From: Cytophagales bacterium
Lineage (GTDB): Bacteria > Bacteroidota > Bacteroidia > Cytophagales > Cyclobacteriaceae
Reading direction: 5' to 3'
Length of the DNA: 44,491 nt
Assembly (NCBI GenBank): GCA_016124425.1
Contig: WGNT01000171.1
Coordinates: forward strand, 1-44,491
In this document: positions 23,307 to 37,732 of the stretch, piece after piece
Numbering within the stretch: position 1 is the stretch's first letter
Layout of the letters: every line of letters starts with the position of its first letter
Made by a program: the position numbers and the translations under genes
The notes under the pieces: generated by a model
The model's database searches: none
What the model saw: the letters and a program-made list of their open reading frames with translations, nothing else
Told to the model about the DNA's origin: nothing

Positions 23307-24425
23307 TTACCAATTAGGTACAGGTGCATGTGCTGCTATCAGCTTCTCCTGCTTTAGCTCAGCCCAAAAGGCCTCAGGTATTTTGGTGGAAAAGGAAGCC
23401 ACGTTTTCTTCCACCTGTTGCTCGGTATGGGCGCCGGGGATAACCCACGATACTACATCCGGTGCCGCTACAAACTGAAGCGCCGCCGTCCGTAGATCTA
23501 CTTGGTGATTTTTGGCCACCTGACGTAACGCTTCCCTTTTTTCCAAGACACCGTCAGGGAAGTTCCCACGATACAAGTACCGATCCTTACCTGCCAAAAA
23601 GCCGGCGTCAAGAGGAGCTCCCATTACTAGTGATATATCCCTTTCCGCAACTTTGGGAAAGAGTTTCTCCAGGGCGTCCTCATGCTTGATGAGCGAGTAC
23701 TGGCAGGCAGACAGAAAAATGTCCGGATCAGCCACATCTATGGCTTTTAAAATTGGCTCTAGGGTGTTTACACCAAATCCCCATCCTTTAATCAGTCCTT
23801 CTTCCCGCATTTTGCTCAGCTCTGGCATGGCTCCTTTGGCGGCTTTATCAAAATAAGTAACCCAATCCTCCTTCATATCGCCATTGTCTGGCGATAGATC
23901 ATGTATAAAAACAAAATCCATCGAAGATAATCCCAAGCGCTGCAAGCTGTCTTCTATGCTTTTTCGTGCGCCAGCGGCGGAATAGTCATAGATATAATCG
24001 AAATTGAACTTCCCCTTCCATATCCCCTTACCCATTTCTTGGCCTTTGTTGGGATGGAAAATCCGCCCAATTTTTGATGAAATAAAAAACTCCTCCGGGT
24101 CCTTATCTTTTAATGTGAGTCCCATCCGCCTTTCACTTATGCCTGCACCGTAAAAAGGGGAAGTGTCAAAATACCTTATCCCCAAATTCCAAGCAGCTTC
24201 CATTGCCCGTATACATTCTATATCGGGATTTACATCAAATCCATTGCCGATGGCTACACCTCCCAGTCCTAGTTTGCTGCTTGCGAGTGAGCCTTTATTT
24301 TGTTGTTCGGTTTTTTGCATATCTTTAAAGGTAGTTGATGAAATGTTTGTAGATGAAAATGTTGCTGGGGCAAAAATGCCTAGTGAGGCAGCCGTCGTTT
24401 TGGACATAAATGACCTTCTATCCAT
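23307..24425 (-). CDS. Tat-exported aldo/keto reductase
   Basis: A 372-residue (alpha/beta)8 oxidoreductase. The N-terminus MDRRSFMSKTTAASLG has the twin-arginine pattern, so it is probably folded in the cytoplasm and exported with cofactor. The catalytic tetrad is complete: Asp87, Tyr92 (FDTSPFYGAG), Lys118 (ISSKIG) and His175 (FIHDLSPD). The YFDTSPFYG, SERRMG and MREEGLIKGWGFG patterns are near the sugar-dehydrogenase branch (D-threo-aldose/L-fucose dehydrogenase type). The substrate is likely a free aldose. It converges with the anti-sigma gene and diverges from the sialidase-like gene, which also has a Tat signal, so both may act in the periplasm. Confidence 0.88.
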   Translation of the reverse strand: MDRRSFMSKTTAASLGIFAPATFSSTNISSTTFKDMQKTEQQNKGSLASSKLGLGGVAIGNGFDVNPDIECIRAMEAAWNLGIRYFDTSPFYGAGISERRMGLTLKDKDPEEFFISSKIGRIFHPNKGQEMGKGIWKGKFNFDYIYDYSAAGARKSIEDSLQRLGLSSMDFVFIHDLSPDNGDMKEDWVTYFDKAAKGAMPELSKMREEGLIKGWGFGVNTLEPILKAIDVADPDIFLSACQYSLIKHEDALEKLFPKVAERDISLVMGAPLDAGFLAGKDRYLYRGNFPDGVLEKREALRQVAKNHQVDLRTAALQFVAAPDVVSWVIPGAHTEQQVEENVASFSTKIPEAFWAELKQEKLIAAHAPVPNW

Positions 24426-24856: not shown

Positions 24857-26134
24857 ATGGCCAAAACCCCACTTTCCTCCCGTCGGTCGTTCATCAAAAA
24901 CTCGTTGATAGGTAGTATTACGTTGCTGACCGCTTCGCCCATGGTTTTTTCATCCTGCAAATCATCGGGGATGTTATCGGAAGAAAAACTTGATTTCGGC
25001 ATCGAGCTGAATGTCCCAACTAGGCTCTTTGATGGAGAAAAATGTTGGGTGCATCCAAGGGTAGGGATCATTCCCAAAGCTGGAAAAAAAGGCCTTCCAA
25101 AAGCGGTGATGACGCTCAGTACCCTCGAACTCTCTGGGAGCGATGTCTTTAAAGGAATGTATAGCATGCAAACCGAAAATCTGGGAAAAGCTTGGACCGA
25201 ACCGTCGATCTCGCCACCATTGGCGCCTCGCACAGAATCAATAGATGGGGTAATTCGTCCGGTGGCCGCAAGCGATTTCTGGCCTACATGGCACCGAAAA
25301 TCCAAAACACTGCTTGGTATAGGCCACACCATCGTCTATACACCTGATTGGAAAGTAACCTCTCCCCGACCACGACATACAGCCTATTCCGTCTTTGACT
25401 CAAATACCAACACTTGGTCGGTATGGGATAAGCTGCAAATGCCTGATGATCCAAAATTTCACAATGCTGGTGCCGGATGTGTACAGCGCTATGATGAGGC
25501 ATCGGGTACTATCCTCCTTCCAATTTATTTTTCACCGCCTGGCCAAAATTCCCAAGTTACCGTTACCAGGTGTGCTTTTGACGGCAAAACGTTGTCCTAC
25601 ATGGAACACGGAACCGAACTGGCAGTTGAGAATGATAGCAGAGGGCTGCATGAACCTTCCCTGACCTATTTCAAAGGCACCTATTTTTTGACGATTCGAA
25701 ATGACTTGCAGGGATATGTAACCAAAAGTAGGGACGGTTTGAATTTCGAGCCGATTCAATCCTGGAAGTTTGACGATGGTAGCGATCTGGGGAATTACAA
25801 TACCCAGCAGCACTGGGTTACCCTTAGCGATGCATTGTTTCTGGTATATACGCGAAGGGGCGCCAATAACGACCATGTCTTTAGACATCGGGCTCCGCTT
25901 TTTATTGGTCAAGTAGATCCGGAGAAGATGGTGGTAATCCGAGATACTGAGCGCATACTCGTACCGGAAAGGGGGGCTAGACTTGGAAATTTTGGAGTGA
26001 CCTTGATAAGCCCAACCGAAACTTGGGTGACTGTCTCTGAATGGATGCAGCCGGAGGGTGTGGAGAAATACGGCAGCGACGGGAGCGTATATGTGGCAAG
26101 GATACTGTGGAATCAGCCAAATCGACTCTTTTAG
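24857..26134 (+). CDS. Tat-exported sialidase-like beta-propeller protein
   Basis: A 425-residue protein. SRRSFIKN at residues 8-15 is a twin-arginine motif, followed by a hydrophobic stretch and a Cys (SSCKS, about 33), so it may be a Tat-dependent lipoprotein. The mature part looks like a six-bladed beta-propeller of the exo-alpha-sialidase superfamily, with an Asp-box-like segment (KSRDGLNFEP) and repeated W/Y-rich strands, and His- and Arg-containing loops (RPRHTAY, GLHEPSLTYF). I cannot identify the full sialidase triad (Arg triad, Tyr, Glu), so a different glycoside is possible. It stands 105 bases before the catabolic operon in the same direction and probably provides its substrate. 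Confidence 0.7.
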   Translation: MAKTPLSSRRSFIKNSLIGSITLLTASPMVFSSCKSSGMLSEEKLDFGIELNVPTRLFDGEKCWVHPRVGIIPKAGKKGLPKAVMTLSTLELSGSDVFKGMYSMQTENLGKAWTEPSISPPLAPRTESIDGVIRPVAASDFWPTWHRKSKTLLGIGHTIVYTPDWKVTSPRPRHTAYSVFDSNTNTWSVWDKLQMPDDPKFHNAGAGCVQRYDEASGTILLPIYFSPPGQNSQVTVTRCAFDGKTLSYMEHGTELAVENDSRGLHEPSLTYFKGTYFLTIRNDLQGYVTKSRDGLNFEPIQSWKFDDGSDLGNYNTQQHWVTLSDALFLVYTRRGANNDHVFRHRAPLFIGQVDPEKMVVIRDTERILVPERGARLGNFGVTLISPTETWVTVSEWMQPEGVEKYGSDGSVYVARILWNQPNRLF

Positions 26135-26183
26135 GTATAAGGTTGCGTGAAAGATAGTATTAGTATTTCATCATAAAGTAATA

Positions 26184-26212
26184 GTAAAACCTTTTACGAT
26201 CTAGTAACTTTG
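26184..26212 (+). promoter_or_regulatory. Promoter with operator-like inverted repeat before the catabolic operon
   Basis: A TAACTTTG box at 26205-26212 fits the Bacteroidota -7 consensus TAnnTTTG and would start transcription near 26219, some 20 bases before the aldolase ATG. Just upstream, GTAAAA-CC-TTTTAC (26184-26197) is a perfect 6-bp inverted repeat with two central bases. It occupies the place where the -33 element is expected, which suits a repressor or activator site. Confidence 0.55.
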
Positions 26213-26239
26213 GTTTGTTTGACATAAACTAATCGCGGA

Positions 26240-27055
26240 ATGAAAATGCAGGAAAGCCTGGTGCTGCAAAAGCTCCGAAACGGGGAGAAAGTGACTTGCT
26301 TCAAGATCAACTTGGCGGATGCCCGTGCGGTGGAAATTGCGGCATTAGCCGGCTTTGATTGCCTATGGGTAGACCAAGAACATATTGGGCAAGATTGGTC
26401 AATTTTGGCTTCACAGATATGGGCCGCCAAGGCATTCCAAAAGGATGTCGTCGTGCGGGTACCCCGAGGAAGTTACAGCGACTATGTCAAGCCCTTGGAA
26501 TTAAATGCTGCGGGAATCATGGTTCCCCATATCATGAGCGTGGAAGATGCCAAAAAGGTGATTCATCAGGTCAGGTTCCATCCCATAGGAATGCGCCCCA
26601 TTGACGGGGGCAATGCAGATGGAGCCTATACGGCTATGGACTTTAAGGCCTACCTGCAGGATGCTAATACAAAGCGTTTCGTGATTTTTCAAATTGAAGA
26701 TCCGGAAGCATTGGACGTATTGGAAGAGATTGCCGCACTGGATGGATTTGACATGCTCTTTTTCGGACCGGGGGATTTTAGCCAGGGCATCGGCGCTCCT
26801 GGAGAATGGAACCATCCCAAAATCAGGGAAGCCCGGAAGCGAGTAGCCGAAGTTGCCGCCAAATACGGTAAATTTGCAGGTACTACCGGAGGCGTGGCGC
26901 AACTGGCTGAATTTTATGCCATGGGATATCAGTTCATCAGCATAGGTGCCGATGTAGTGGGCCTTACCCAGTATTGCGAACAATTAATTTCCGCAGTTCC
27001 CACTAAGTCATCCTCAGAAGCCGGAAACACCTATTATACTCCAACAGCTACGTAA
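26240..27055 (+). CDS. HpcH/HpaI-family aldolase (2-keto-3-deoxy sugar acid aldolase type)
   Basis: A 271-residue TIM-barrel class II aldolase that splits 2-keto-3-deoxy acids into pyruvate and an aldehyde. Catalytic and metal-binding residues are visible: His48 in LWVDQEHIGQD, Arg76 in VRVPRG, Glu153 in FQIEDPEA and Asp179 in FFGPGDFSQ. These match HpaI and KDR aldolase (RhmA) positions. It is the first gene of the operon and overlaps the next start codon by one base (TAATG at 27053-27057). In this pathway it probably cleaves the keto-deoxy acid made by the dehydrogenases downstream. Which acid is not visible from the sequence. Confidence 0.88.
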   Translation: MKMQESLVLQKLRNGEKVTCFKINLADARAVEIAALAGFDCLWVDQEHIGQDWSILASQIWAAKAFQKDVVVRVPRGSYSDYVKPLELNAAGIMVPHIMSVEDAKKVIHQVRFHPIGMRPIDGGNADGAYTAMDFKAYLQDANTKRFVIFQIEDPEALDVLEEIAALDGFDMLFFGPGDFSQGIGAPGEWNHPKIREARKRVAEVAAKYGKFAGTTGGVAQLAEFYAMGYQFISIGADVVGLTQYCEQLISAVPTKSSSEAGNTYYTPTAT

Positions 27056-28011
27056 TGAAAAAGCGTGCATTAGGAAAAACGGGGTTAGAAGTATCTGAGA
27101 TCGCCTTTGGCGGAGTGGAAATTGGCATGCCCTATGGCTTTGGTATTCATTCGGAAGCTGAAATGCTTCAGGAAAAGGATGCCATCAGGTTATTATGCCT
27201 TGCGCTGGACAGGGGCATAACTTTTTACGATACCGCCCGCATGTACGGCCAATCCGAAAGCCTTATCGGGAAGGCTTTTAAAGACAAGAGAGATCAGGTT
27301 ATAATAAGTTCTAAATGCCGCCATCTCCGGCGTTCAGATGGGTCATTGCCCAATGATTCCGAGCTTCCAGAGATAATTTCGACTTCGCTGGAAGAAAGCT
27401 TACGTGAGCTACAGACGGATTACTTGGACCTATTTATGTTGCATCAGGCCGATGTGGCGATTCTCGAAAATGAGGCAATTAGAGAGGCTTTTTTAAGGCT
27501 AAAAGCTTCTGGAAAGGTCCGAGCTATCGGTGCGTCGACTTACTCGGTGGAAGAAACCACTCTAGCGATCGAAGACCCCGCCTGGGAGGTGGTGCAGCTA
27601 CCCTTCAACCTTCTGGATCAAAGACAGGGAAGCTTGTTCCGACAAGCTGAAATCCATGGTGTTGGGATCGTTATTCGCTCTGTACTTCTTCGGGGTCTTT
27701 TGAGTGACCGTGGCAAAAATTTGCCCCAGCCCTTGTTAGCTATAGAGCAGCACATTCAATCCTATAGCCAATTGGCTGAAAATGGCGATATGGACTTACC
27801 AACCTTGGCGATCAAGTTTGCATTGGCTTTTCCGGAGGTATCTTCTGTGCTGGTAGGTATCGATAAGGAAAGCTATCTGCTGCATGCCTTGGCTGCCGGT
27901 AAAGGCACCATGTTGAATAAAAGGCAAATTGATGAGGCGAAAGCGCTCGCCTATCCCGATCCGGAATTCATAAATCTTCCAGTCTGGGATAGGAATGGTT
28001 GGTTAACATAA
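27055..28011 (+). CDS. Cytoplasmic aldo/keto reductase
   Basis: A 318-residue (alpha/beta)8 reductase without signal peptide. The catalytic tetrad is Asp59, Tyr64 (FYDTARMYG), Lys87 (IISSKCRH) and His130 (LFMLHQAD). The start RALGKTGLEVSEIAFGG is typical for the family's first strand. Related proteins oxidise or reduce sugars and sugar lactones with NAD(P)H. The ATG shares one base with the aldolase stop, and the next gene starts seven bases after its stop, so it is firmly part of the operon. It is a different branch from the Tat-exported reductase at 23307. Confidence 0.88.
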   Translation: MKKRALGKTGLEVSEIAFGGVEIGMPYGFGIHSEAEMLQEKDAIRLLCLALDRGITFYDTARMYGQSESLIGKAFKDKRDQVIISSKCRHLRRSDGSLPNDSELPEIISTSLEESLRELQTDYLDLFMLHQADVAILENEAIREAFLRLKASGKVRAIGASTYSVEETTLAIEDPAWEVVQLPFNLLDQRQGSLFRQAEIHGVGIVIRSVLLRGLLSDRGKNLPQPLLAIEQHIQSYSQLAENGDMDLPTLAIKFALAFPEVSSVLVGIDKESYLLHALAAGKGTMLNKRQIDEAKALAYPDPEFINLPVWDRNGWLT

Positions 28012-28018
28012 TGAAGCT

Positions 28019-28939
28019 ATGATCAGAATTGGAATACTTGGTATGAGTCCGGGAAACGCACATCCTTATTCATGGTCTTCCATCATTAACGGAAACTTTG
28101 ACGGGGATGAAATCTCCGCCATTGGGTATCCGGCTGTCGCGGACTACTTACGTGCAAATAGGGATACATTGGGCATTTCAGGTGCCAAAGTAACTCATGT
28201 CTGGACTCAGGAAGCCGATATCAGCGAGAGCATTGCGAAATCTTCCAAGATCCCCCATGTGGTACAAAACATGGAAGAGATGATAGGAGAAGTGGATGCT
28301 GTAATCGTAGGCCGGGACGATCCCGAAAACCACGTGGCCATGTCTAAGCCGTTTCTAGATGCGGGCATTCCACTGTTTGTAGATAAGCCACTTGCCTTTT
28401 CCCAAGCCGATCTGGACTTCTTTGCCAGTGAGGTTAAGGCTGGAAAATGGCTGATGTCGTGCTCATCGATGCGGTATGCACAGGAATGCCGGACAGTAAA
28501 GCAAGAATTAAAATCCTTGGGCGACCTTCACCTCGTAACGGCCGTAGGCAAAAAGGACTGGAAGAAATACGGGGTACATCTTCTTGAAGCCCTGTTCAGT
28601 ACCTTGGATGATCCAAAGCCGCTCTGGGTACAGCACGTAGGGGAAAAGGATACGGATATTGTAGTCGTCGGTTTCGAAAACGGGATCAAAGCAACCGTAC
28701 ACCTTTTTGCCGATATTTGTGGCACGTTTCAGTTGTCTTTTTTTGGCTCCAATGGCTGGCGGATCGCGGATATCCGCAACTCCTACAGCATGTTTCGGGA
28801 CAATATGATTGAATTCGTCAAGTCCGTTGCGGAAGGAGGCAGCCGATTGGATTTTGGGAAAACCCATCGCATCATTCAGACGCTTATAGCTGCGCAGGAA
28901 AGTTTTGAGAAGGACGGGATTGTTATCCCTTTGAAATAG
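28019..28939 (+). CDS. Gfo/Idh/MocA-family oxidoreductase, atypical
   Basis: A 306-residue protein. The family features are VDAVIVGRDDPENHVAMSKPFLDAGIPLFVDKPLA, containing the cofactor-side Lys in DKP, and a later His in WKKYGVHLLEAL. The first nucleotide-binding loop is unusual: GILGMSPGNAHPYSW instead of the GxGxxG turn, as seen in a sub-branch of this family. NAD(P) may be bound in a modified manner. Probable role: oxidation of a sugar or sugar-acid hydroxyl. The length is slightly short for the family, which usually has 330-380 residues. Separated from the following SDR by five bases. Confidence 0.8.
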   Translation: MIRIGILGMSPGNAHPYSWSSIINGNFDGDEISAIGYPAVADYLRANRDTLGISGAKVTHVWTQEADISESIAKSSKIPHVVQNMEEMIGEVDAVIVGRDDPENHVAMSKPFLDAGIPLFVDKPLAFSQADLDFFASEVKAGKWLMSCSSMRYAQECRTVKQELKSLGDLHLVTAVGKKDWKKYGVHLLEALFSTLDDPKPLWVQHVGEKDTDIVVVGFENGIKATVHLFADICGTFQLSFFGSNGWRIADIRNSYSMFRDNMIEFVKSVAEGGSRLDFGKTHRIIQTLIAAQESFEKDGIVIPLK

Positions 28940-28944
28940 AAAAC

Positions 28945-29721
28945 ATGCATGTACTTGATTTATTAAATTTAAAGGAAAAAGTAATCGTTGTCACCGGTGG
29001 TTCCGGGCAATACGGAAAGTGTTTAGTTGAGGGGTTAGCCGAGGCTGGGGGGACGGTCATTACCACGTCAAGGGACTTAATGTCCGCTGAAACAACAGCT
29101 GCATTTTTCCAAAAGAAGGGGCTGGATGTGCATCCCATGCAATTGGATCAGGGGCTTACGGATTCAGTGGCTTCGTTTCGTGAAAAATTGATCGCTGACT
29201 TCGGAAAGCTACATGTATTTGTAAACAATGCCGTGTCGCGACCAATGAAAGGGTACAATGGGCCTATTGCCCAATTCGAAGAATCCATGCGGGTAAATGC
29301 CACGGGCATGATGAACCTGTTACGCCAACTTACCGAGTTGATCATCCAATCCGGCGGGGGATCCGTAATTAACATCGCTTCGATGATGGGCATGAAAGGT
29401 CCTGACTTGTCCAATTACGAAGGTACCAACATGGGGGATCTTCCCTCAGACTACTTTTTCCACAATGCCGGCCTGATCAACCTCACGCGGTTTATGGCCA
29501 AAATGCATGCAGGGAAAAACATCCGGTTTAACTGCATCAGCCCCGGGGGGCTCTTCAATAATCAGCCTCAGGCCTTCTTGGATAACTATTGCAAAAAGGT
29601 ACCGCTGCGCAGAATGGCCAATACCGATGATATCAAGGGGCTGGCTGTTTTGCTGGCATCGGACGCGGGAGCATACATCAATGGCGAGAATATCCTAATG
29701 GATGGAGGCCTAAATGCATAA
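28945..29721 (+). CDS. SDR oxidoreductase with Lys-to-Asn change in the active site
   Basis: A 258-residue short-chain dehydrogenase/reductase. Intact elements are TGGSGQYGKCL for the dinucleotide, VNNAVSRP, Ser146 (INIASMMG), Tyr170 and the ISPGG stretch. In the YxxxK motif the fifth position is Asn174 (YFFHNAG, AAT at 29464-29466); relatives have Lys there, which holds the cofactor ribose and lowers the Tyr pKa. Activity should therefore be low, or it may serve as a partner for the intact SDR, whose gene overlaps it by eight bases. I recall similar proteins with YFFHK, so the change looks recent or specific; that is memory, not a search. Confidence 0.86.
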   Translation: MHVLDLLNLKEKVIVVTGGSGQYGKCLVEGLAEAGGTVITTSRDLMSAETTAAFFQKKGLDVHPMQLDQGLTDSVASFREKLIADFGKLHVFVNNAVSRPMKGYNGPIAQFEESMRVNATGMMNLLRQLTELIIQSGGGSVINIASMMGMKGPDLSNYEGTNMGDLPSDYFFHNAGLINLTRFMAKMHAGKNIRFNCISPGGLFNNQPQAFLDNYCKKVPLRRMANTDDIKGLAVLLASDAGAYINGENILMDGGLNA

Positions 29722-30517
29722 CGCAGGCGATACTTCATTTGAAAAGCTCTTCGGACTGGCAGGAAAAGTCATTTGGGTGGTCGGAGGAGCTGGCTATTTG
29801 GGGTCAGCAGTGGTAAAGGTGCTTGTAGCTGCGGGAGCTAGAGTTATTTGTGCAGATTTGGGTGAGAAGAGTAAGTCCTTTGTGAAGGAAAACGGACTCT
29901 CGCCTCAAGTCGTCCCCGTATCTCTTGACCTCACAAAAGAAGATCAGGTGGAGGATTTTGTTTCGGTGCTGACTAATGCGCTTGGAATACCTTCTGGGGT
30001 GGTAAACCTTTCGTTTGCCTCCACGGCAAAAACCTTTGCTGAGCTAACAGCTGCCGATTTTGACCACGTCAATCAAGGTGGACTTACGGCAAGTTTTCTA
30101 TTTGGCAGGTTGGCCTGTGACTTGATGGCTCAGCAAGCTGAAGGAAGTATGGTGATGTTTTCCAGCATGTATGGCCTGACGGCGCCGGATCCAAGCATTT
30201 ACGAGGAACCAATGAATCCAAATCCCATTGAATACGGTGTAGGAAAAGCCGGGATTATACAAATGACCAAATACTTTGCCATGCATTATGGTCTTAAGGG
30301 CGTGCGTTGCAATTGTGTTTCTCCCGGCCCTTTTCCGAACAAAACAGTCCAAGATAGTCATCCGGACTTTGTAGATCGCCTCGCAAAAAAAACGATGCTG
30401 GGTAGGGTAGGGGACGCGAATGAAGTCGCTGGAGTGGTTAGCTTTCTCCTTTCTCCTGCGGCTTCGTATATTACCGGACACAACTTGGTCGTAGATGGAG
30501 GTTGGACATCTTGGTAA
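29714..30517 (+). CDS. SDR oxidoreductase with intact active site
   Basis: A 267-residue short-chain dehydrogenase/reductase. The glycine-rich loop is GGAGYLGSAV, and the catalytic residues are Ser in MFSSMYG, Tyr174 and Lys178 (EYGVGKAG). The end has AASYITGHNLVVDGGW, the family C-terminal signature. An extra segment of about 20 residues between Ser and Tyr (TAPDPSIYEEPMNPNPI) is shared in position with the preceding SDR, so the two probably arose by duplication. The start codon overlaps the previous gene by eight bases, implying coupled synthesis and possibly a heteromer. The NNA motif is replaced by VNLSFAS. Confidence 0.87.
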   Translation: MHNAGDTSFEKLFGLAGKVIWVVGGAGYLGSAVVKVLVAAGARVICADLGEKSKSFVKENGLSPQVVPVSLDLTKEDQVEDFVSVLTNALGIPSGVVNLSFASTAKTFAELTAADFDHVNQGGLTASFLFGRLACDLMAQQAEGSMVMFSSMYGLTAPDPSIYEEPMNPNPIEYGVGKAGIIQMTKYFAMHYGLKGVRCNCVSPGPFPNKTVQDSHPDFVDRLAKKTMLGRVGDANEVAGVVSFLLSPAASYITGHNLVVDGGWTSW

Positions 30518-30551
30518 ACGATATCGGTTAACTTATAAAACGCAACGCATT

Positions 30552-30932
30552 ATGAAAAAAATTATCCATCCAAAAAGAGACGCCAACTTTGTCACTGGAG
30601 CCTATTCCGATGCCGTACTGGTAGACGGTTTTCTGTTTGTTTCGGGTCAGGCAGCAGTAGATTTTGAGACTTCCCGCTTTGTACTCGGCACAATAGAGGA
30701 AGAGACGCGCCGAACCCTCGATAACATCAAAGCCATCGTGGAGGAAGCCGGAGCTACTATGGATCACGTTGTGAAATGTACCGTTCACCTGGCAGATATT
30801 GCTGAATTTGATCGCTATAATCAGGTCTATGCTACCTATTTCACCCAGATAAAGCCAGCACGTACCACCGTGCAGTCCGTTTTGGCGGAGGGGATAAAGG
30901 TAGAAATAGATTGCATCGTCAAAATGCCGTAA
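30552..30932 (+). CDS. RidA-family enamine/imine deaminase
   Basis: A 126-residue trimeric-type RidA/YjgF protein. The ATG at 30552 is chosen since the fold starts there (KKIIHPKRDANFVTGAYSDAVLVDGFLFVSGQ). The active-site Arg is present in KPARTTVQS, and the EIDCIVKMP end is typical. RidA proteins hydrolyse reactive 2-aminoacrylate-like enamines released by PLP enzymes, or act as specific deaminases in catabolic operons. Its presence suggests that an amino group is removed in this pathway. It lies 34 bases after the SDR and nine before the dipeptidase gene. Confidence 0.9.
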   Translation: MKKIIHPKRDANFVTGAYSDAVLVDGFLFVSGQAAVDFETSRFVLGTIEEETRRTLDNIKAIVEEAGATMDHVVKCTVHLADIAEFDRYNQVYATYFTQIKPARTTVQSVLAEGIKVEIDCIVKMP

Positions 30933-30941
30933 ATTGATCCT

Positions 30942-32027
30942 ATGAAAAAGCGACTGATCATCGACGCCCATTTGGATCTGGCCATGAACGCCATTGAATG
31001 GAACAGGGATTTGCGGCTTCCTCTTTCCCAAGTGCGGCAGGCCGAAATGCATATGAAAGACAAACCTGACAGGGGCCTTGGCACAGTGACACTTCCGGAA
31101 CTTCGAAAAGGAAAAATTGGGATCGTTGTAGCCACCCAACTGGCCCGTTATTCTCCTCCTGATTCTGCTTTACCCGGGTGGAACTCTCCACAGCAGGCAT
31201 GGGCGATGACGCAGGCCCAGCTTGCTTGGTATCGGGAAATGGAAGCCTTGGGGGAAATGAAACAAATAGTCAATCGAACCGGACTTGATCAGCTCGTTTC
31301 GCTATGGGAAAATGAAAGCATACCGGATGAAGAAAAGCCAGTCGGGTATATCTTAAGCTTGGAGGGGGCGGATTCTCTCGTGGATGTTTCTTACTTGTCC
31401 AAAGCTTATGCCTATGGGGTAAGGGCATTGGGATTGTCCCACTTTGGGCCCGGACGCTATGCGCCTGGAACGAAGATGGAAGGTCCCATCACAGAACTGG
31501 GCAAAGAATTGCTCGAAACGATGGGCTGTCTAAACATGATTCTTGATGTCACCCATCTGACAGACCAAGGATTTGATCAGGCAATGGACCTTTACAGTGG
31601 ACCCATCTGGGCGAGCCATCACAATGTCCGCAAGATAGTACCTAATCAGCGGCAATTAACAGACGATCAGATCACTCGTCTGATACAGCGGGGAGCTGTT
31701 ATTGGAGGCATGCTGGATTGTTGGGCGATGGATATTCGCTTTATCGATACCATCTCCGATCCCTGGCAACTAGACATTAGACTGGAACAACTCATCGACC
31801 ATTGGGATCATATCTGTCAGTTGGCAGGAAATACCGACCATATCGCCATAGGCAGTGATTTGGACGGAATATTTGGCACAGAGCAATCTCCTTGGGACAT
31901 GAACTCGATCGCTGACCTGCAAAAATTCGAATCCCTTTTGGCTGCCCGGGGCTATCTTGAGGCTGATATTGATAAAATATTTCACGGCAACTGGCTGCGT
32001 TTTCTGCGCAAGGCCCTTCCTGTTTAG
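30942..32027 (+). CDS. M19 family dipeptidase (renal dipeptidase type)
   Basis: A 361-residue zinc amidohydrolase. The metal ligands are all visible: His10 and Asp12 (DAHLD), the bridging Glu141 (LSLEGAD), His205 (DVTHLT) and His226 or His227 (ASHHN); Asp306 (IGSDLDG) is the catalytic acid/base. M19 enzymes cleave L-X-D-X dipeptides or related amides, including peptidoglycan or N-acyl amino acid pieces. No signal peptide, so it should be cytoplasmic. In the operon it would release an amino acid from an amide-linked intermediate, or act on a cyclic amide; this is inference. Confidence 0.9.
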   Translation: MKKRLIIDAHLDLAMNAIEWNRDLRLPLSQVRQAEMHMKDKPDRGLGTVTLPELRKGKIGIVVATQLARYSPPDSALPGWNSPQQAWAMTQAQLAWYREMEALGEMKQIVNRTGLDQLVSLWENESIPDEEKPVGYILSLEGADSLVDVSYLSKAYAYGVRALGLSHFGPGRYAPGTKMEGPITELGKELLETMGCLNMILDVTHLTDQGFDQAMDLYSGPIWASHHNVRKIVPNQRQLTDDQITRLIQRGAVIGGMLDCWAMDIRFIDTISDPWQLDIRLEQLIDHWDHICQLAGNTDHIAIGSDLDGIFGTEQSPWDMNSIADLQKFESLLAARGYLEADIDKIFHGNWLRFLRKALPV

Positions 32028-32052
32028 ACGTTTTAACACCTTGCTTCCTTCT

Positions 32053-33417
32053 ATGACTGATTCCGCTACAACCTGCTGGGCGGGTGCTGCCCAAGTTGAC
32101 ACCACTCCGCCACTCGGTACCGTGATCAATGGCGACTTTGTTACGCACTATGCTACATTTGTCCATGATCCGCTGCACGCAAAGGCATTGGTACTGCGCA
32201 AGGGACAAACGACCATAGCCCTTGTCGTTGTGGATATTTGTGTGATGGGCCAAGAGCTGCTCGACTATACGAAGGGCTTAATCACCATGGAGCATGGGAT
32301 TCCAGCTAGCCACCAGATGATTAGCAGCACCCATACCCATGCGGCAGGGGCTGTGGAGGAGGTGCATATGGTTCAGGCGGATTTATCCTATCGGAACATA
32401 CTTCCCGGGCTGATACTACAGGCTGTGGGCGAAGCTTTGGATAGGCTAAAGCCCGCACAAATTGCTTTTGGAAAAACTGCTGCGGCAGACCATGTACTTT
32501 GCAGAAGGTACTACATGGATGGTTCTTACGTGCCTATTAACCCCGTTTCCGGAAAGCCGGATAAGATAAAGACAAACCCCTTCGGAGGCGAAGCGAGTAT
32601 CTTGCGCGCCGTTGCTTCTCCCGACCCGGAACTTTGCTTTCTGGCGGTAAGGGGATTGGACGGAGATTGGATCAGCGTGTTAGGCAATTATTCGTTGCAT
32701 TATGTAGGGGATTGGGAAAATGGCACCCTCTCTGCCGACTATTTTGGTGTTTTTTCTGATGCGCTGAAGGAAAAGCTAAATACCCCAATGAATTTCGTTG
32801 GGATAATGAGCAATGGCACAAGTGGGGATATCAATATTTGGGATTTTCTTGATCAGGACAGGTACCCAAAGACGCTGTTTGAAAAAAGCAAGCTTATCGG
32901 CGAAGACCTCGCGGCAAGGGTAGTTGCCACGCTTCCACACTTGGAGTGGGAAGATAATCCGGATTTGGGAGTTGTTTATGGGGAGCTGAGTGTACCCCGC
33001 AGAATGCCAAGCCTTGAAGAATTGGATGAGGCGGCGGGTATATTAAAAAAAGGTAATCTCGAGAATCTGATCCCGAATGTAGAAGGGTGGAAGAAATTGT
33101 ATGCCCGTGAGCAACTTTTGCTGGCGGCATTCCCGCCAACAGCCTGCGTTCCCGTGCAGGTGCTGCGCATCGGTTCCGGGAGCATTGGTGCGTTACCCGG
33201 GGAATTTTTTGCCTCTACCGGGATCACAATTAAAGAAAGCTTTTCCGGCCCGTATTTTACGATCACATTGGCGAATGGAAATGTGGGATACGTTCCTCCT
33301 GCTGAGGAGCTGGATTTGGGCGGATATGAAACATGGCGCTGCCGAATCAGTAACCTATGTGCAGAAGCAGAGGAAAAAATCCGAACGGCATTGATAGCAA
33401 TGCTGCATTCTCACTAG
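32053..33417 (+). CDS. Neutral/alkaline ceramidase-like amidohydrolase, cytoplasmic
   Basis: A 454-residue protein; the ATG at 32053 lies 25 bases after the dipeptidase stop and is the natural start. It has the N-terminal domain of non-lysosomal ceramidases: WAGAAQVDTTPPLG, the SSTHTHAAGAV zinc motif with two His, NYSLHYVGD, SNGTSGDINIWDF, and ALPGEFFASTG near the end. True ceramidases are larger (about 650 or more residues) and have an extra C-terminal domain, absent here. No signal peptide, so the substrate is intracellular. Related short forms are frequent in sugar-degradation clusters; an N-deacylase role is inferred. It is the last gene of the operon. Confidence 0.83.
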   Translation: MTDSATTCWAGAAQVDTTPPLGTVINGDFVTHYATFVHDPLHAKALVLRKGQTTIALVVVDICVMGQELLDYTKGLITMEHGIPASHQMISSTHTHAAGAVEEVHMVQADLSYRNILPGLILQAVGEALDRLKPAQIAFGKTAAADHVLCRRYYMDGSYVPINPVSGKPDKIKTNPFGGEASILRAVASPDPELCFLAVRGLDGDWISVLGNYSLHYVGDWENGTLSADYFGVFSDALKEKLNTPMNFVGIMSNGTSGDINIWDFLDQDRYPKTLFEKSKLIGEDLAARVVATLPHLEWEDNPDLGVVYGELSVPRRMPSLEELDEAAGILKKGNLENLIPNVEGWKKLYAREQLLLAAFPPTACVPVQVLRIGSGSIGALPGEFFASTGITIKESFSGPYFTITLANGNVGYVPPAEELDLGGYETWRCRISNLCAEAEEKIRTALIAMLHSH

Positions 33418-34628: not shown

Positions 34629-35435
34629 CTATCTCTTTTCAAATGCGTTCACCGCAGCCCTGACCGAGCCATATTGCAACAGCATGTCATACGCCTCAGT
34701 ATGTCCAACACCGGTAGCTTCCATAATCATATAGATGCCCCGCTTGACCAATTTTTTGTTTGAGAGCTGCATATCTACCATCTTGTTTCCCTTTACCCGG
34801 CCTAGCTTAATCATCACACTGGTAGAAATCATGTTTAGGACCAACTTTTGGGCTGTGCCGGATTTCATCCGGGTACTGCCGGTTACGAATTCAGGACCTA
34901 CTACTGCTTCTACCGGAAGTTGGGCCATGGCTGCAAGTGGCGTGTGCGCATTGCAGGTAATGCATCCGGTAAGGAGTCCGGCTTCATTGGCGGCTTTCAC
35001 GCCCCCTAGCACATAAGGGGTTGTTCCTGAGGCGGCGATTCCTATGATGGTATCGAATTCATTATACCCAAAAGCCTGAATATCCTGCCAGGCTTGGTTT
35101 GGGTCATCCTCGGCATTCTCTACTGCCCGGCGGATAGCGGTGTCGCCTCCGGCAATAATGCCTATTACCAAATCAAAGGGCACCCCATATGTTGGCGGAC
35201 ACTCAGAGGCATCCAATATGCCGAGGCGCCCACTGGTGCCCGCACCAATATAAAAAAGCCGCCCTCCCATTTCCATACGGGGAATGATAGCGGCTACAAG
35301 TTTTTCGATTTGGGGAATGGCTTTGTTTACCGCAAAGGGAACCGTATGGTCTTCCTTGTTCATATTTGCCAGCAAATCGGCAATATCCATTTGCTCCAGA
35401 TTATCGTAAAAGGAGCTGCTTTCGGTAGTACTCAT
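34629..35435 (-). CDS. murQ: N-acetylmuramic acid 6-phosphate etherase
   Basis: A 268-residue SIS-fold lyase that cleaves the D-lactyl ether of MurNAc-6-phosphate to give GlcNAc-6-phosphate and D-lactate. The signature GAGTSGRLGILDASECPPTYG is complete and holds the catalytic Glu78; the second acid is Glu109 (AVENAEDD). GSTRMKSGTAQKL is the conserved phosphate-binding end. It is about 30 residues shorter than E. coli MurQ (298) but has all core parts. The start overlaps the upstream kinase stop by four bases (ATGA type). With that kinase it forms a MurNAc salvage pair as in peptidoglycan recycling. Confidence 0.95.
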   Translation of the reverse strand: MSTTESSSFYDNLEQMDIADLLANMNKEDHTVPFAVNKAIPQIEKLVAAIIPRMEMGGRLFYIGAGTSGRLGILDASECPPTYGVPFDLVIGIIAGGDTAIRRAVENAEDDPNQAWQDIQAFGYNEFDTIIGIAASGTTPYVLGGVKAANEAGLLTGCITCNAHTPLAAMAQLPVEAVVGPEFVTGSTRMKSGTAQKLVLNMISTSVMIKLGRVKGNKMVDMQLSNKKLVKRGIYMIMEATGVGHTEAYDMLLQYGSVRAAVNAFEKR

Positions 35436-36274
35436 ATTTTTTCCTGATGGTAAAGGGTAAGTCCCGCTATGGGAGCTTCCAAAATAATTTGAATTGAAAC
35501 CTGAAGATCGCTTCCTACTTTACGCAGTACATCGCTGTTATAATACGCAATGGATCCGACAAAGTTAACAGGCTTGTCTTTGTAGTTTTCATAACGCATT
35601 ACGTGCCGTCTGAAGAAATCCATAAATCCTTGGTAAAAAAGGTTAAAGCAGTAGGGGTGGTCTTTCCGTTCTCCTATAAACTTACAGAAGGAAGCCATGT
35701 ATCTGTTTGGATAGGGCTTCTGGTAGACATTTTCCTGAATGTCCAAGGTAGCCAATCCAAGTTCCTTAATTGCCAGTTCACGAATTTCGGGAGGCATGTC
35801 ATCGTAGATAAAATCCTGAAGAAAATGCCTTCCTATATAGGAACCGCCACCTTCATCACCAAGCAAATAGCCCGGGGATGGACGGCTTGTTGTTATCTTG
35901 TCCCCATCATAATCCCCGCTGTTTGAGCCGGTACCTAAGATACAGGCAATTCCGGGACGATGTCCACAGGTCGCTTTCGCGGCCGCTGTAAGGTCGTGGT
36001 CAACTTCTACGGTTGCTTCTCCTATCACCGCATTAATGACTCTACGTACGCTGGCTTTGTTTTTCTCTGCCGTACAACCGGCTCCATAAAAATACACCTC
36101 CTTAATAAGCCCCTTTAAAGCCATCATATCCTGTGTATACAGGTCTTTGAGCATGTCCTCCTCCTTCTGGTAATAGGGATTGAATCCAACTGTGCGGAAC
36201 TGCCCTATACTTCCATCTTCACGGATGACTCTCCAATCCGTTTTGCTGGAGCCACTATCTGCAATTAAAATCAT
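35432..36274 (-). CDS. BadF/BadG-type N-acetylglucosamine or N-acetylmuramic acid kinase
   Basis: A 280-residue ASKHA-fold sugar kinase. The phosphate-1 motif is at the very start (DSGSSKTDWRV), the second in CILGTGSNSGDYDG, and LLGDEGGGSYIGR contains the family loop. Such kinases phosphorylate GlcNAc, glucosamine or, in the MurK branch, MurNAc. The four-base overlaps with both murQ and the cytochrome b5-like gene make it the central gene of a three-gene operon. MurNAc as substrate is the natural inference, because MurQ needs MurNAc-6-phosphate and no other kinase is near. Confidence 0.88.
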   Translation of the reverse strand: MILIADSGSSKTDWRVIREDGSIGQFRTVGFNPYYQKEEDMLKDLYTQDMMALKGLIKEVYFYGAGCTAEKNKASVRRVINAVIGEATVEVDHDLTAAAKATCGHRPGIACILGTGSNSGDYDGDKITTSRPSPGYLLGDEGGGSYIGRHFLQDFIYDDMPPEIRELAIKELGLATLDIQENVYQKPYPNRYMASFCKFIGERKDHPYCFNLFYQGFMDFFRRHVMRYENYKDKPVNFVGSIAYYNSDVLRKVGSDLQVSIQIILEAPIAGLTLYHQEKI

Positions 36275-36498
36275 ATCAGGTAGGCAACGGGTTCAAATTT
36301 ATCAAAAACATTTGCGTTATGCGGTGCATCAGAAAGTTCCTTTGTAAGGTCCTGCCCTGCCCAGTGTTCGTAATGGCGGCCATTTTTCCAAAGGCGGGAA
36401 GAACTTACATCATAAACCATGCCTTTGAACGCAATGTATATCTCAGGCTTGTCCTGTCCATTATACAATGCGAGTTGGTTTTTCGTGAGTTTCTTCAT
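36271..36498 (-). CDS. Small cytochrome b5-like heme-binding protein
   Basis: A 75-residue single-domain protein of the cytochrome b5-like heme/steroid-binding family. Conserved parts are the start LTKNQLALYNGQDKPEIYIAFKGMVYDVS, the first axial His region RHYEHWAGQD (His45 in the place of HPGG), and the second, DAPHNANVF (His60). No membrane helix or signal is visible, so it is a soluble redox or ligand-binding protein. It is the first gene of the kinase-murQ operon and overlaps the kinase start by four bases. The pairing with amino-sugar enzymes is unexplained. Confidence 0.82.
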   Translation of the reverse strand: MKKLTKNQLALYNGQDKPEIYIAFKGMVYDVSSSRLWKNGRHYEHWAGQDLTKELSDAPHNANVFDKFEPVAYLI

Positions 36499-36506
36499 TC
36501 CTAGTT

Positions 36507-36514
36507 CAAATATA
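36507..36514 (-). promoter_or_regulatory. Putative -7 box of the cytochrome b5-kinase-murQ operon
   Basis: The minus strand reads TATATTTG here, an exact TAnnTTTG match. Transcription would start near 36500, only about two bases before the ATG at 36498. If real, the mRNA is leaderless or nearly so; otherwise the operon is read through from the arginase-like gene 56 bases upstream. Confidence 0.4.
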
Positions 36515-36554
36515 AAAATTTTAAAAAGGAAACGGCTACCTTCTGTGAAAGCGC

Positions 36555-37706
36555 TTAATACAATTTGAGCTGTGCGTTAACCCAGCGTTCGGGAATCTCA
36601 CCCTTTTGGGCGGTAAGATAATCTTCGTAACTACAGGGGATGATGCTGTCTCTGCCATATTTCCCTTTATCGGAAGTAGGGACTTCCATCCACCATTTAC
36701 CACTCAGGTTGCTTTTGAAAAAGTGAAGTATGGAAGGTTTGGAATCAAGAGAAACAGTGTATTTGGTGTAGTCACTACTTTTGAAGGATAGACTGTCTTT
36801 ACGGTGATAAAATCCCTCAATAAAATACCAGATCATCGTTGCTATGACGGCTCCGGTACTCTGTCGGGTATCATCAAGATCGGAGTGGTATCCATATATT
36901 CCAAAGGAGCTCAGTTTTTCGTTCATTCCCGCAAACCAGCAAATCTGACACGCCTCTTCCGCAGTCATTCCAAAGGGTTGCGGATCAATTGCACCCGGTG
37001 CGTCGGCAGACTTTATGGCACATACATCGAAGCTAAGCAAGTCAGCATTACGTATCAGGGGTTCGATTTCTTTGAAGTTGTCGCGGAGTTTGCCCAGGCG
37101 TACATGATCAAAATAGAGTTTTTCAAGTGTGGTAACCAAGTCAATGTCTGCCAAAAAACTTTGATAGGCGAGATGGCAATAGTTGAACAAAAAGTTAGGT
37201 TCGTGCAAAATGATAGACTGTGAATGGGATTCGTCCGCCCGGCCTTCGGCTTCCATGTCCAACTTCGCATCTACGGTCAACAAGCTAACCATTTTCTTCA
37301 TCTTTTCATAAGATAGGTATTGTCCGATGTCCAAGTCATGGGAGCCGCCGATAAAGATGGGAAGGATTTGCATTTTAATGAGTAGTTCGCCGATTGAACG
37401 GATCAACTGACAGGTTTCCTTGGGTGTGTCTCCGCTTTTAAGGTTACCCAGGTCTGCCACCTTATAGGAACCTTGTCCCTTTTTGAGCGCGTAAAGTTTT
37501 TTCCGGATGGTGTGGGAAGAAAGGGAACCGTTAGTCAAATCAATAGATCCCCTGTATTCTTCCAGACCGATGATAGCCAGTTGCATACCGGACAATTCGG
37601 GAAATCTTTCTCCATGAAAATGTACCCCAGTAAAAAACGAGTGCAACGAATGGTTGTTGTGATAGAATGATTCTGGAAGTGGGTCAAAGAATAGTTGTAA
37701 ATCCAT
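36555..37706 (-). CDS. Arginase-family protein with changed metal-site residues
   Basis: A 383-residue protein; the ATG at 37706 is chosen over a TTG at 37727. It belongs to the ureohydrolase fold and is often annotated as formimidoylglutamase. GGSHD (His123) is present, but the usual DAHxD is DAKLD (Lys148), and SxDxDxxDP reads SFDVCAIKSAD, with Cys229 and Lys232 in place of two Asp ligands. A two-manganese site as in arginase therefore looks unlikely. Bacteroidota carry such divergent paralogs widely; function is unknown. No hut genes are near. A TAnnTTTG box lies 20 bases upstream. Confidence 0.8.
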   Translation of the reverse strand: MDLQLFFDPLPESFYHNNHSLHSFFTGVHFHGERFPELSGMQLAIIGLEEYRGSIDLTNGSLSSHTIRKKLYALKKGQGSYKVADLGNLKSGDTPKETCQLIRSIGELLIKMQILPIFIGGSHDLDIGQYLSYEKMKKMVSLLTVDAKLDMEAEGRADESHSQSIILHEPNFLFNYCHLAYQSFLADIDLVTTLEKLYFDHVRLGKLRDNFKEIEPLIRNADLLSFDVCAIKSADAPGAIDPQPFGMTAEEACQICWFAGMNEKLSSFGIYGYHSDLDDTRQSTGAVIATMIWYFIEGFYHRKDSLSFKSSDYTKYTVSLDSKPSILHFFKSNLSGKWWMEVPTSDKGKYGRDSIIPCSYEDYLTAQKGEIPERWVNAQLKLY

Positions 37707-37724
37707 GGATCGGCTGTTTTTTGT

Positions 37725-37732
37725 CAAAAATA
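37725..37732 (-). promoter_or_regulatory. Putative -7 box of the arginase-like gene
   Basis: Minus strand TATTTTTG matches TAnnTTTG, with start of transcription expected about 12 bases before the ATG at 37706. It lies inside AT-rich sequence, so chance is possible. It is located just after the nqrF terminator, which fits a new transcription unit. Confidence 0.4.

Follow-up and report, generated by a model that had tools for sequence, protein, structure and literature searches.

A putative operon for the breakdown of an N-acylated nonulosonic acid or a close analogue in a Cytophagales bacterium

We analyzed a gene cluster at positions 24857 to 33417 of contig WGNT01000171.1 from a Cytophagales bacterium (GenBank assembly GCA_016124425.1). 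The whole stretch of 44,491 nucleotides is here referred to as the window, and the nine genes of the cluster are here named SIA, ALD, AKR, GFO, SDR1, SDR2, RID, M19 and CER (Table 1). With a probability of about one half, we propose that this operon degrades an N-acylated nonulosonic acid (NulO) of the pseudaminic or legionaminic acid kind, or a close analogue, and not N-acetylneuraminic acid (Neu5Ac) by the known route. More tentatively, it might represent a dedicated catabolic pathway for bacterial di-amino NulOs (pseudaminic acid, legionaminic acid or their epimers), built from biosynthesis-type AKR-Gfo-SDR homologues, with a class II aldolase taking the final step in place of NanA. Chemically, NulOs are 3-deoxy-2-ulosonic acids bearing a hydroxyl group at C4, as required by an aldolase of the HpaI type, and those of the pseudaminic (Pse) and legionaminic (Leg) acid type have two amide nitrogens. 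Our proposal builds on both features; the nitrogens would account for the amidases and RidA as well as for the aminotransferases encoded in related loci.

Related loci were collected by scanning the GFO protein against 84,980 species genomes. The scan covered close relatives only and gave at least 39 loci with flanks of up to 10 kb, from Cyclobacterium, Lunatimonas, Sphingobacterium, Dyadobacter, Runella, Spirosoma and others. All open reading frames (ORFs) of 39 loci, which are of the degradation type, were mapped for gene-content counts. ALD, AKR, GFO and SDR1 were contiguous in 36 of the 39 loci, and AKR was found in 38. The three exceptions showed one inserted gene (L057), a rearrangement (L071) or two missing genes on a short contig (L069). 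The contiguity of the four genes exceeds chance, and this core is conserved as an old unit. SDR2 was present in 24 and RID in 23 loci, and RidA, M19 and the ceramidase-like gene occurred together in 22, forming an accessory block outside the core. A preliminary description of the window had named the independent occurrence of the genes in related genomes as a finding that would speak against it; with the core contiguous in nearly all loci, this was not found, and the genes are conserved together.

Other genes recurred in the related loci as well. Sialidase-like propellers of some family were present in 33 of the 39 loci, in nine of them as a SIA homologue beside the core. An MFS or SSF transporter was found in 29 loci and an AraC regulator in 20, and the SusD of some loci was nearest to NanU. 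Like the contiguous core, these genes count in favour of the proposal. Further recurring genes encoded a class-III aminotransferase, 3-hydroxyacyl-CoA-dehydrogenase-like (3HCDH) proteins, PhyH, an SGNH esterase, GH20, GH43, a NeuD-like hexapeptide protein and an amidohydrolase-aminotransferase fusion. When the own genome of the bacterium (5.5 Mb, 195 contigs, 88.6% complete) was searched for locus genes of the relatives, no orthologue of the MFS transporter (family F2), the fusion protein (F9) or the commonest propeller (F1) was found. The best matches were 25% identical for F2, 37% for F9, confined to its aminotransferase part, and 30% for F1, where they covered one third of the length.

A link to NulOs came from GFO. 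Searches through the whole genomes of relatives and through 395 genomes sampled from the phylum found the narrow GFO family in two settings only, degradation loci and NulO biosynthesis clusters. Outside relatives matched with E values of about 1e-47 to 1e-57, compared with about 1e-14 for generic Gfo proteins. All four outside relatives inspected were located in NulO biosynthesis clusters. Here, the gene orders were PseB-PseC-AKR-GFO-Gfo2-cytidylyltransferase...PseI (L040), PseC-AKR-GFO-SDR-PseF-PseG-PseH-PseI (L091) and PseB...PseC-AKR-GFO-Gfo2-cytidylyltransferase-PseG/H-PseI (L092), with PseI, PseB/PseC, PseF, PseG or PseH over or near their curated cut-offs. The fourth, a Halorussus plasmid, carried (acylneuraminate) cytidylyltransferase-SDR-Gfo together with NeuB and NeuC. 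A maximum-likelihood tree placed the GFO proteins of degradation and biosynthesis loci together and apart from generic Gfo proteins (support 96/90). In viral contigs and phages no GFO relatives were found. Aldo/keto reductases adjoined Gfo or short-chain dehydrogenase (SDR) genes in five NulO clusters (L040, L091, L092, L127 and L128).

The two SDRs pointed in the same direction. Their best family was PRK09186, with 168.5 bits for SDR1 and 155 bits for SDR2 against a cut-off of 255; SDR1 also matched PtmA with 114 bits (cut-off 350). As the SDRs have thousands of relatives, neighbourhoods were inspected for 12 distinct top plasmid matches, a small sample from the top rows of two ranked tables in which near-duplicates, unannotated records and a few rows were left out. 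Ten of these 12 were located in NulO loci (Sulfitobacter, Azospirillum, Rhodobacteraceae SC52, Halorussus, Rhizobium WL3, Haladaptatus, Priestia, Marinovum, Pseudohalocynthiibacter and Maritalea), compared with none of six lower-ranking controls (Fisher p 0.0015). SDR2 grouped with SDRs of the NulO clusters of Priestia, Maritalea, Marinovum and Halorussus (support 86/85 and 89/93), and the nearest outside relatives of SDR1 were mostly found in NulO clusters. The best-scoring SDR among the phage matches listed, from the cyanophage Marine virus AG-345-L05 (L121), adjoined genes for a cytidylyltransferase, a DegT aminotransferase and NeuB, as named from their sequences. Together with this PtmA-like SDR they make up a phage-borne NulO synthesis set.

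Pse and Leg biosynthesis clusters with accessory AKR, Gfo and SDR genes, such as L091 and that of Priestia (pseC-SpsF-AKR-SDR-pseG-pseH-pseI), share with the operon Gfo and SDR homologues and AKR family members in adjacent order. However, PseB, NeuB/PseI and a cytidylyltransferase are found there and not here, whereas the operon joins an aldolase, amidases and an exported propeller, to which its relatives add SusC/D and transporters. In Vibrio, a Pse-type cluster that includes AKR and dehydrogenase genes produces a di-N-acetyl NulO distinct from standard Pse5Ac7Ac (PMC7371886), and the SDRs EpaB and AciE participate in epimerising Pse and acinetaminic acid at C8 (PMC12053666).

The sequence of the cluster confirmed nine plus-strand ORFs at the positions given earlier, eight of which, from position 26240 onward, are tightly packed and nearly contiguous with spacers of -1, +7, +5, -8, +34, +9 and about +25 bases. 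The SIA gene is set apart from this run by 105 bases. Profile searches against Pfam and NCBIfam bore out the earlier family names for the aldolase, AKR, Gfo, both SDRs, RidA and M19; CER and the propeller were recognized by fold. The SDRs scored 115 and 146 bits in Pfam, and RID exceeded the cut-off of TIGR00004 (118 vs 106 bits). Among the Pfam and NCBIfam matches of the cluster there was no NanA (DHDPS-family lyase), NanE or NanK, as the preliminary description had noted, and classical sialic acid catabolism is not encoded by it. Genes of the DHDPS family were present on other contigs. A NeuB/PseI synthase or CMP-NulO cytidylyltransferase was absent from the cluster as well, which sets it apart from NulO biosynthesis clusters; the NeuB homologues of the genome were located on contigs C50 and C68, with a third weak one on C142. 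Within the cluster neither a transporter nor the SusC/SusD pair of a polysaccharide utilization locus was found. The same observation made earlier holds for the cluster but not beyond it, as the loci of relatives include MFS or SSF transporters and, in some cases, SusC/D. A TAnnTTTG promoter-type box at 26205-26212, listed in the preliminary description, carries no weight, since 44 occurrences in the window compare with 38 expected by chance; sigma-70-like sites were likewise present at chance frequency.

Table 1. Genes of the cluster, with positions in the window and assigned or proposed functions
Gene	Position	Strand	Product
SIA	24857..26134	+	six-bladed propeller of sialidase fold, exported by the twin-arginine (Tat) route, possibly a lipoprotein; proposed glycosidase freeing an acidic sugar
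ALD	26240..27055	+	class II pyruvate aldolase, HpcH/HpaI family; proposed C3-C4 cleavage of a 4-hydroxy-2-keto acid
AKR	27055..28011	+	aldo/keto reductase, core gene; Pfam 154 bits
GFO	28019..28939	+	atypical Gfo/Idh/MocA oxidoreductase with GMSxGNxHPYSW N-terminus, core gene; Pfam 41.5 bits
SDR1	28945..29721	+	short-chain dehydrogenase near PRK09186/PtmA, core gene
SDR2	29714..30517	+	second short-chain dehydrogenase; 8-base overlap with SDR1
RID	30552..30932	+	RidA-type imine/enamine hydrolase; Pfam 108 bits
M19	30942..32027	+	membrane-dipeptidase-family metallo-hydrolase; Pfam 164 bits
CER	32053..33417	+	amidase of neutral-ceramidase fold, start ATG at 32053; proposed N-deacylase

ALD belongs to the HpcH/HpaI class II family (PF03328, 92 bits vs cut-off 25), and its closest relatives in the PDB were the aldolases HpaI, YfaU and GarL. 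The catalytic residues of HpaI, His48, Arg73, Glu153 and Asp179, were kept in 40 of 40 sequences. Although ALD has its family and these residues in common with the 2-keto-3-deoxy acid aldolases HpaI, GarL and RhmA, it scored far below all curated equivalog cut-offs (134 vs 369, 126 vs 407 and 91.5 vs 441 bits). In M19 the metal motifs HxD, E, H, H and D were kept, and no export signal was seen. The structural model of CER matched three neutral ceramidase entries with Z 29-31, the next match reaching only 7.2, and CER shares with neutral ceramidase the metal-site motif HTH besides carrying the motif NGTSGD. It differs by an identity of only about 16-19%, a PF04734 score below the gathering cut-off (25.6 vs 32.1 bits) and its location in a sugar operon, and no signal peptide was seen in CER.

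At its N-terminus SIA has a twin-arginine motif (SRRSFIK) and a cysteine that may belong to a lipobox. SIA had no Pfam match, and a PDB sequence search gave nothing useful. Its AlphaFold model (pLDDT 79, pTM 0.82) aligned with sialidases at VIA Z 28-31 over about 320 residues with a root mean square deviation of about 3.2, and the top 50 rows of the fold search consisted of sialidases plus 5hx0, in agreement with a six-bladed sialidase propeller as in GH33. As judged from the model, SIA has a sialidase fold, from which sialidase activity does not follow. Glu266, Arg281, Arg343 and Arg345 were invariant and are plausible equivalents of the remaining arginines and the catalytic Glu/Tyr and Asp of GH33. 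The entry 5hx0 (Dfer_1899 of Dyadobacter fermentans), a solved structure of unknown function, belongs to the F1 propellers (570 bits) and was the top fold match of the SIA model but only 13% identical to SIA. Loci of Dyadobacter and Sphingobacterium (L070, L062, L060 and others; families F8 and F12) repeatedly encode a small exported HEAT-repeat-like protein next to the propellers. A HEAT protein was also found on a Natronococcus plasmid (L120) together with BNR, GH20, Rid and ceramidase-like genes.

From these data we infer the catabolic direction, the substrate, each reaction and the order of the steps as follows. SIA, once exported, would free a terminal sugar from a glycan. The sugar would be imported by a transporter encoded elsewhere in the genome; the loci of relatives themselves include an MFS anion symporter or an SSF symporter. 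AKR, GFO, SDR1 and SDR2 may act by oxidation or epimerisation on hydroxyls of the sugar or of its side chain, CER and M19 could take off N-acyl or aminoacyl groups, and RidA would hydrolyse the imine or enamine formed upon nitrogen loss. A retro-aldol cleavage of the 4-hydroxy-2-keto acid by ALD would finally give pyruvate and an aldehyde. Redox steps are favoured before the cleavage on one ground only, the redox genes being conserved to the same degree as the aldolase. An exported glycosidase-type protein, a nitrogen-containing substrate, amidases and a pyruvate-type aldolase had all been suggested in the preliminary description and are supported here. We would rather omit its initial oxidation of the sugar to a keto-deoxy acid, since the homology points to a NulO, which is already a 3-deoxy-2-keto acid.

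Several points weigh against a NulO as substrate. The main one is the missing arginine of the RIP motif. This motif, [FYW]R[IVLM]P, carries the first arginine of the sialidase triad, and a motif search did not find it in any of 13 SIA homologues or 22 F1 propellers, so that a carboxylated 2-keto sugar is no more than a putative substrate of the glycosidase. Furthermore, SDR2, RID, M19 and CER were all missing from 12 of the 39 loci, and the nitrogen chemistry is thus either not obligatory or done by other genes. SusD proteins, closest to the sialic-acid SusD NanU (265 bits, below the cut-off of 425), were limited to eight loci. Two of the 12 SDR matches, those of Devosia and Sinorhizobium, were located in sugar-acid catabolism, and AKR alone was rejected as a pointer to NulOs, its nearest plasmid relatives being generic. 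Finally, the GFO and SDR homologues could act on sugar nucleotides or precursors instead of the NulO itself.

An alternative would be a non-phosphorylative sugar-acid pathway, in which the propeller frees a uronic acid or (6-deoxy) sugar that is turned by the redox enzymes into a 2-keto-3-deoxy aldonate and split by the HpaI-type aldolase into pyruvate and an aldehyde. The relationship of ALD to GarL, RhmA/YfaU and HpaI is consistent with it, and the nearest family of the MFS transporters in related loci was that of D-galactonate. In addition, a Sinorhizobium plasmid couples an HpcH/HpaI-type aldolase and an SDR1-like SDR with RraA, an FGGY kinase and a fucose isomerase. However, this aldolase is only 26% identical, the needed dehydratase or lactonase is not present in the window cluster, and the link of GFO and the SDRs to NulO clusters as well as RidA, M19 and CER would be left unexplained. 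We regard such a pathway as unlikely, even if it is the best of the alternatives.

The missing RIP motif in SIA and F1 could also mean that a sialidase-fold enzyme of altered specificity frees another N-acylated acidic amino sugar, or a sugar bearing an amino acid, that is no NulO. This would agree with the two amidases and RidA of the operon and with the class-III aminotransferase and 3HCDH genes of the relatives. Ceramidase-like genes elsewhere are found with SIS, amidohydrolase and 6-phosphogluconolactonase genes (Nitratireductor), and in Proteiniphilum (L057) the core is followed by genes for an amidohydrolase, a second-type ceramidase-like protein, an FGGY kinase, a SIS protein and a TIM-barrel isomerase. 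Nevertheless, the HpaI-type aldolase requires a 4-hydroxy-2-keto acid, which a NulO offers directly, and the homology of GFO and the SDRs speaks for a NulO, which makes another amino sugar an unlikely substrate too.

In a survey of how microbes catabolise sialic acid, NanA, NanK and NanE serve to define the process (PMC10570557). With this classical route, including its Bacteroidetes variant with a different N-acetylmannosamine epimerase, the operon has in common an exported sialidase-fold protein and a putative pyruvate-releasing aldolase, and among its relatives a sugar-acid transporter and, in some, a NanU-like SusD. It differs in having an HpcH/HpaI class II aldolase in place of the DHDPS-family lyase, four oxidoreductases and two amidases without an epimerase or kinase, and a propeller without the RIP motif. 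An alternative route for ordinary Neu5Ac or Kdn in place of NanA/NanE/NanK would be suggested by the sialidase fold, the NanU-like SusD and GH20 in some Sphingobacterium loci, but is quite improbable. DHDPS-family aldolases adjoin other sialidase-like genes on other contigs of the genome, so that a separate NanA-type route may exist; the relatives of GFO and the SDRs are mostly found in Pse- or Leg-type clusters, Kdn has no nitrogen, and the RIP motif is missing. That the operon serves to remodel or salvage NulO of the cell's surface, for which the NeuB homologues in two polysaccharide-type clusters of the genome could be cited, is very improbable in view of the aldolase and two amidases in the operon, the SusC/D, glycosidases and AraC regulator in related loci, and the absence of a cytidylyltransferase or glycosyltransferase within or beside the core.

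Bacterial NulOs coat the flagella, capsules and lipopolysaccharides of many bacteria. In the open-access literature searched, only their making is described and no catabolic route for pseudaminic or legionaminic acid was found; this is in line with the earlier suggestion of an undescribed pathway, although it is weak evidence. The operon offers a concrete gene set for asking what recycles bacterial NulOs, in culturable Cyclobacterium, Dyadobacter, Sphingobacterium, Lunatimonas and Runella. If it is a dedicated pathway for bacterial di-amino NulOs, soil, plant-associated and marine Bacteroidota could feed on the surface glycans of other bacteria. The operon would also be a source of enzymes recognising NulOs, and a likely role would be assigned to 5hx0 as well. 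The AKR-Gfo-SDR set in biosynthesis clusters is also flagged as a functional module.

Two neighbouring regions were not counted as part of the cluster. A Tat-exported aldo/keto-reductase-like protein is encoded divergently to SIA (23307-24425, minus strand) and was found beside the cluster in none of the related loci. Downstream (34629-37727, minus strand), genes for MurQ, a BadF-type sugar kinase and an arginase/formiminoglutamase-like protein keep their order in Lunatimonas only and are probably neighbours by chance.

Two other loci of the same genome were noted. On contig C148 (1-18008; L110) a second unassigned operon encodes SusC, a NanU-like SusD, three sialidase-like propellers, an AstE/AspA-type deacylase, an SDR, a PALP enzyme, a DHDPS-family aldolase, RraA-like, RidA, M81/MlrC, SMP-30-like and Gfo proteins and a NanM-SSF fusion transporter. 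It seems to be a parallel pathway for a different sialic-like compound. Contig C50 (L112) carries a biosynthesis cluster of the NulO type, in which NeuB is accompanied by a fusion protein joining an SpsF-like cytidylyltransferase to a class-III aminotransferase. The aminotransferase part of this protein is 35-37% identical to that of the amidohydrolase-aminotransferase fusion in related degradation loci.

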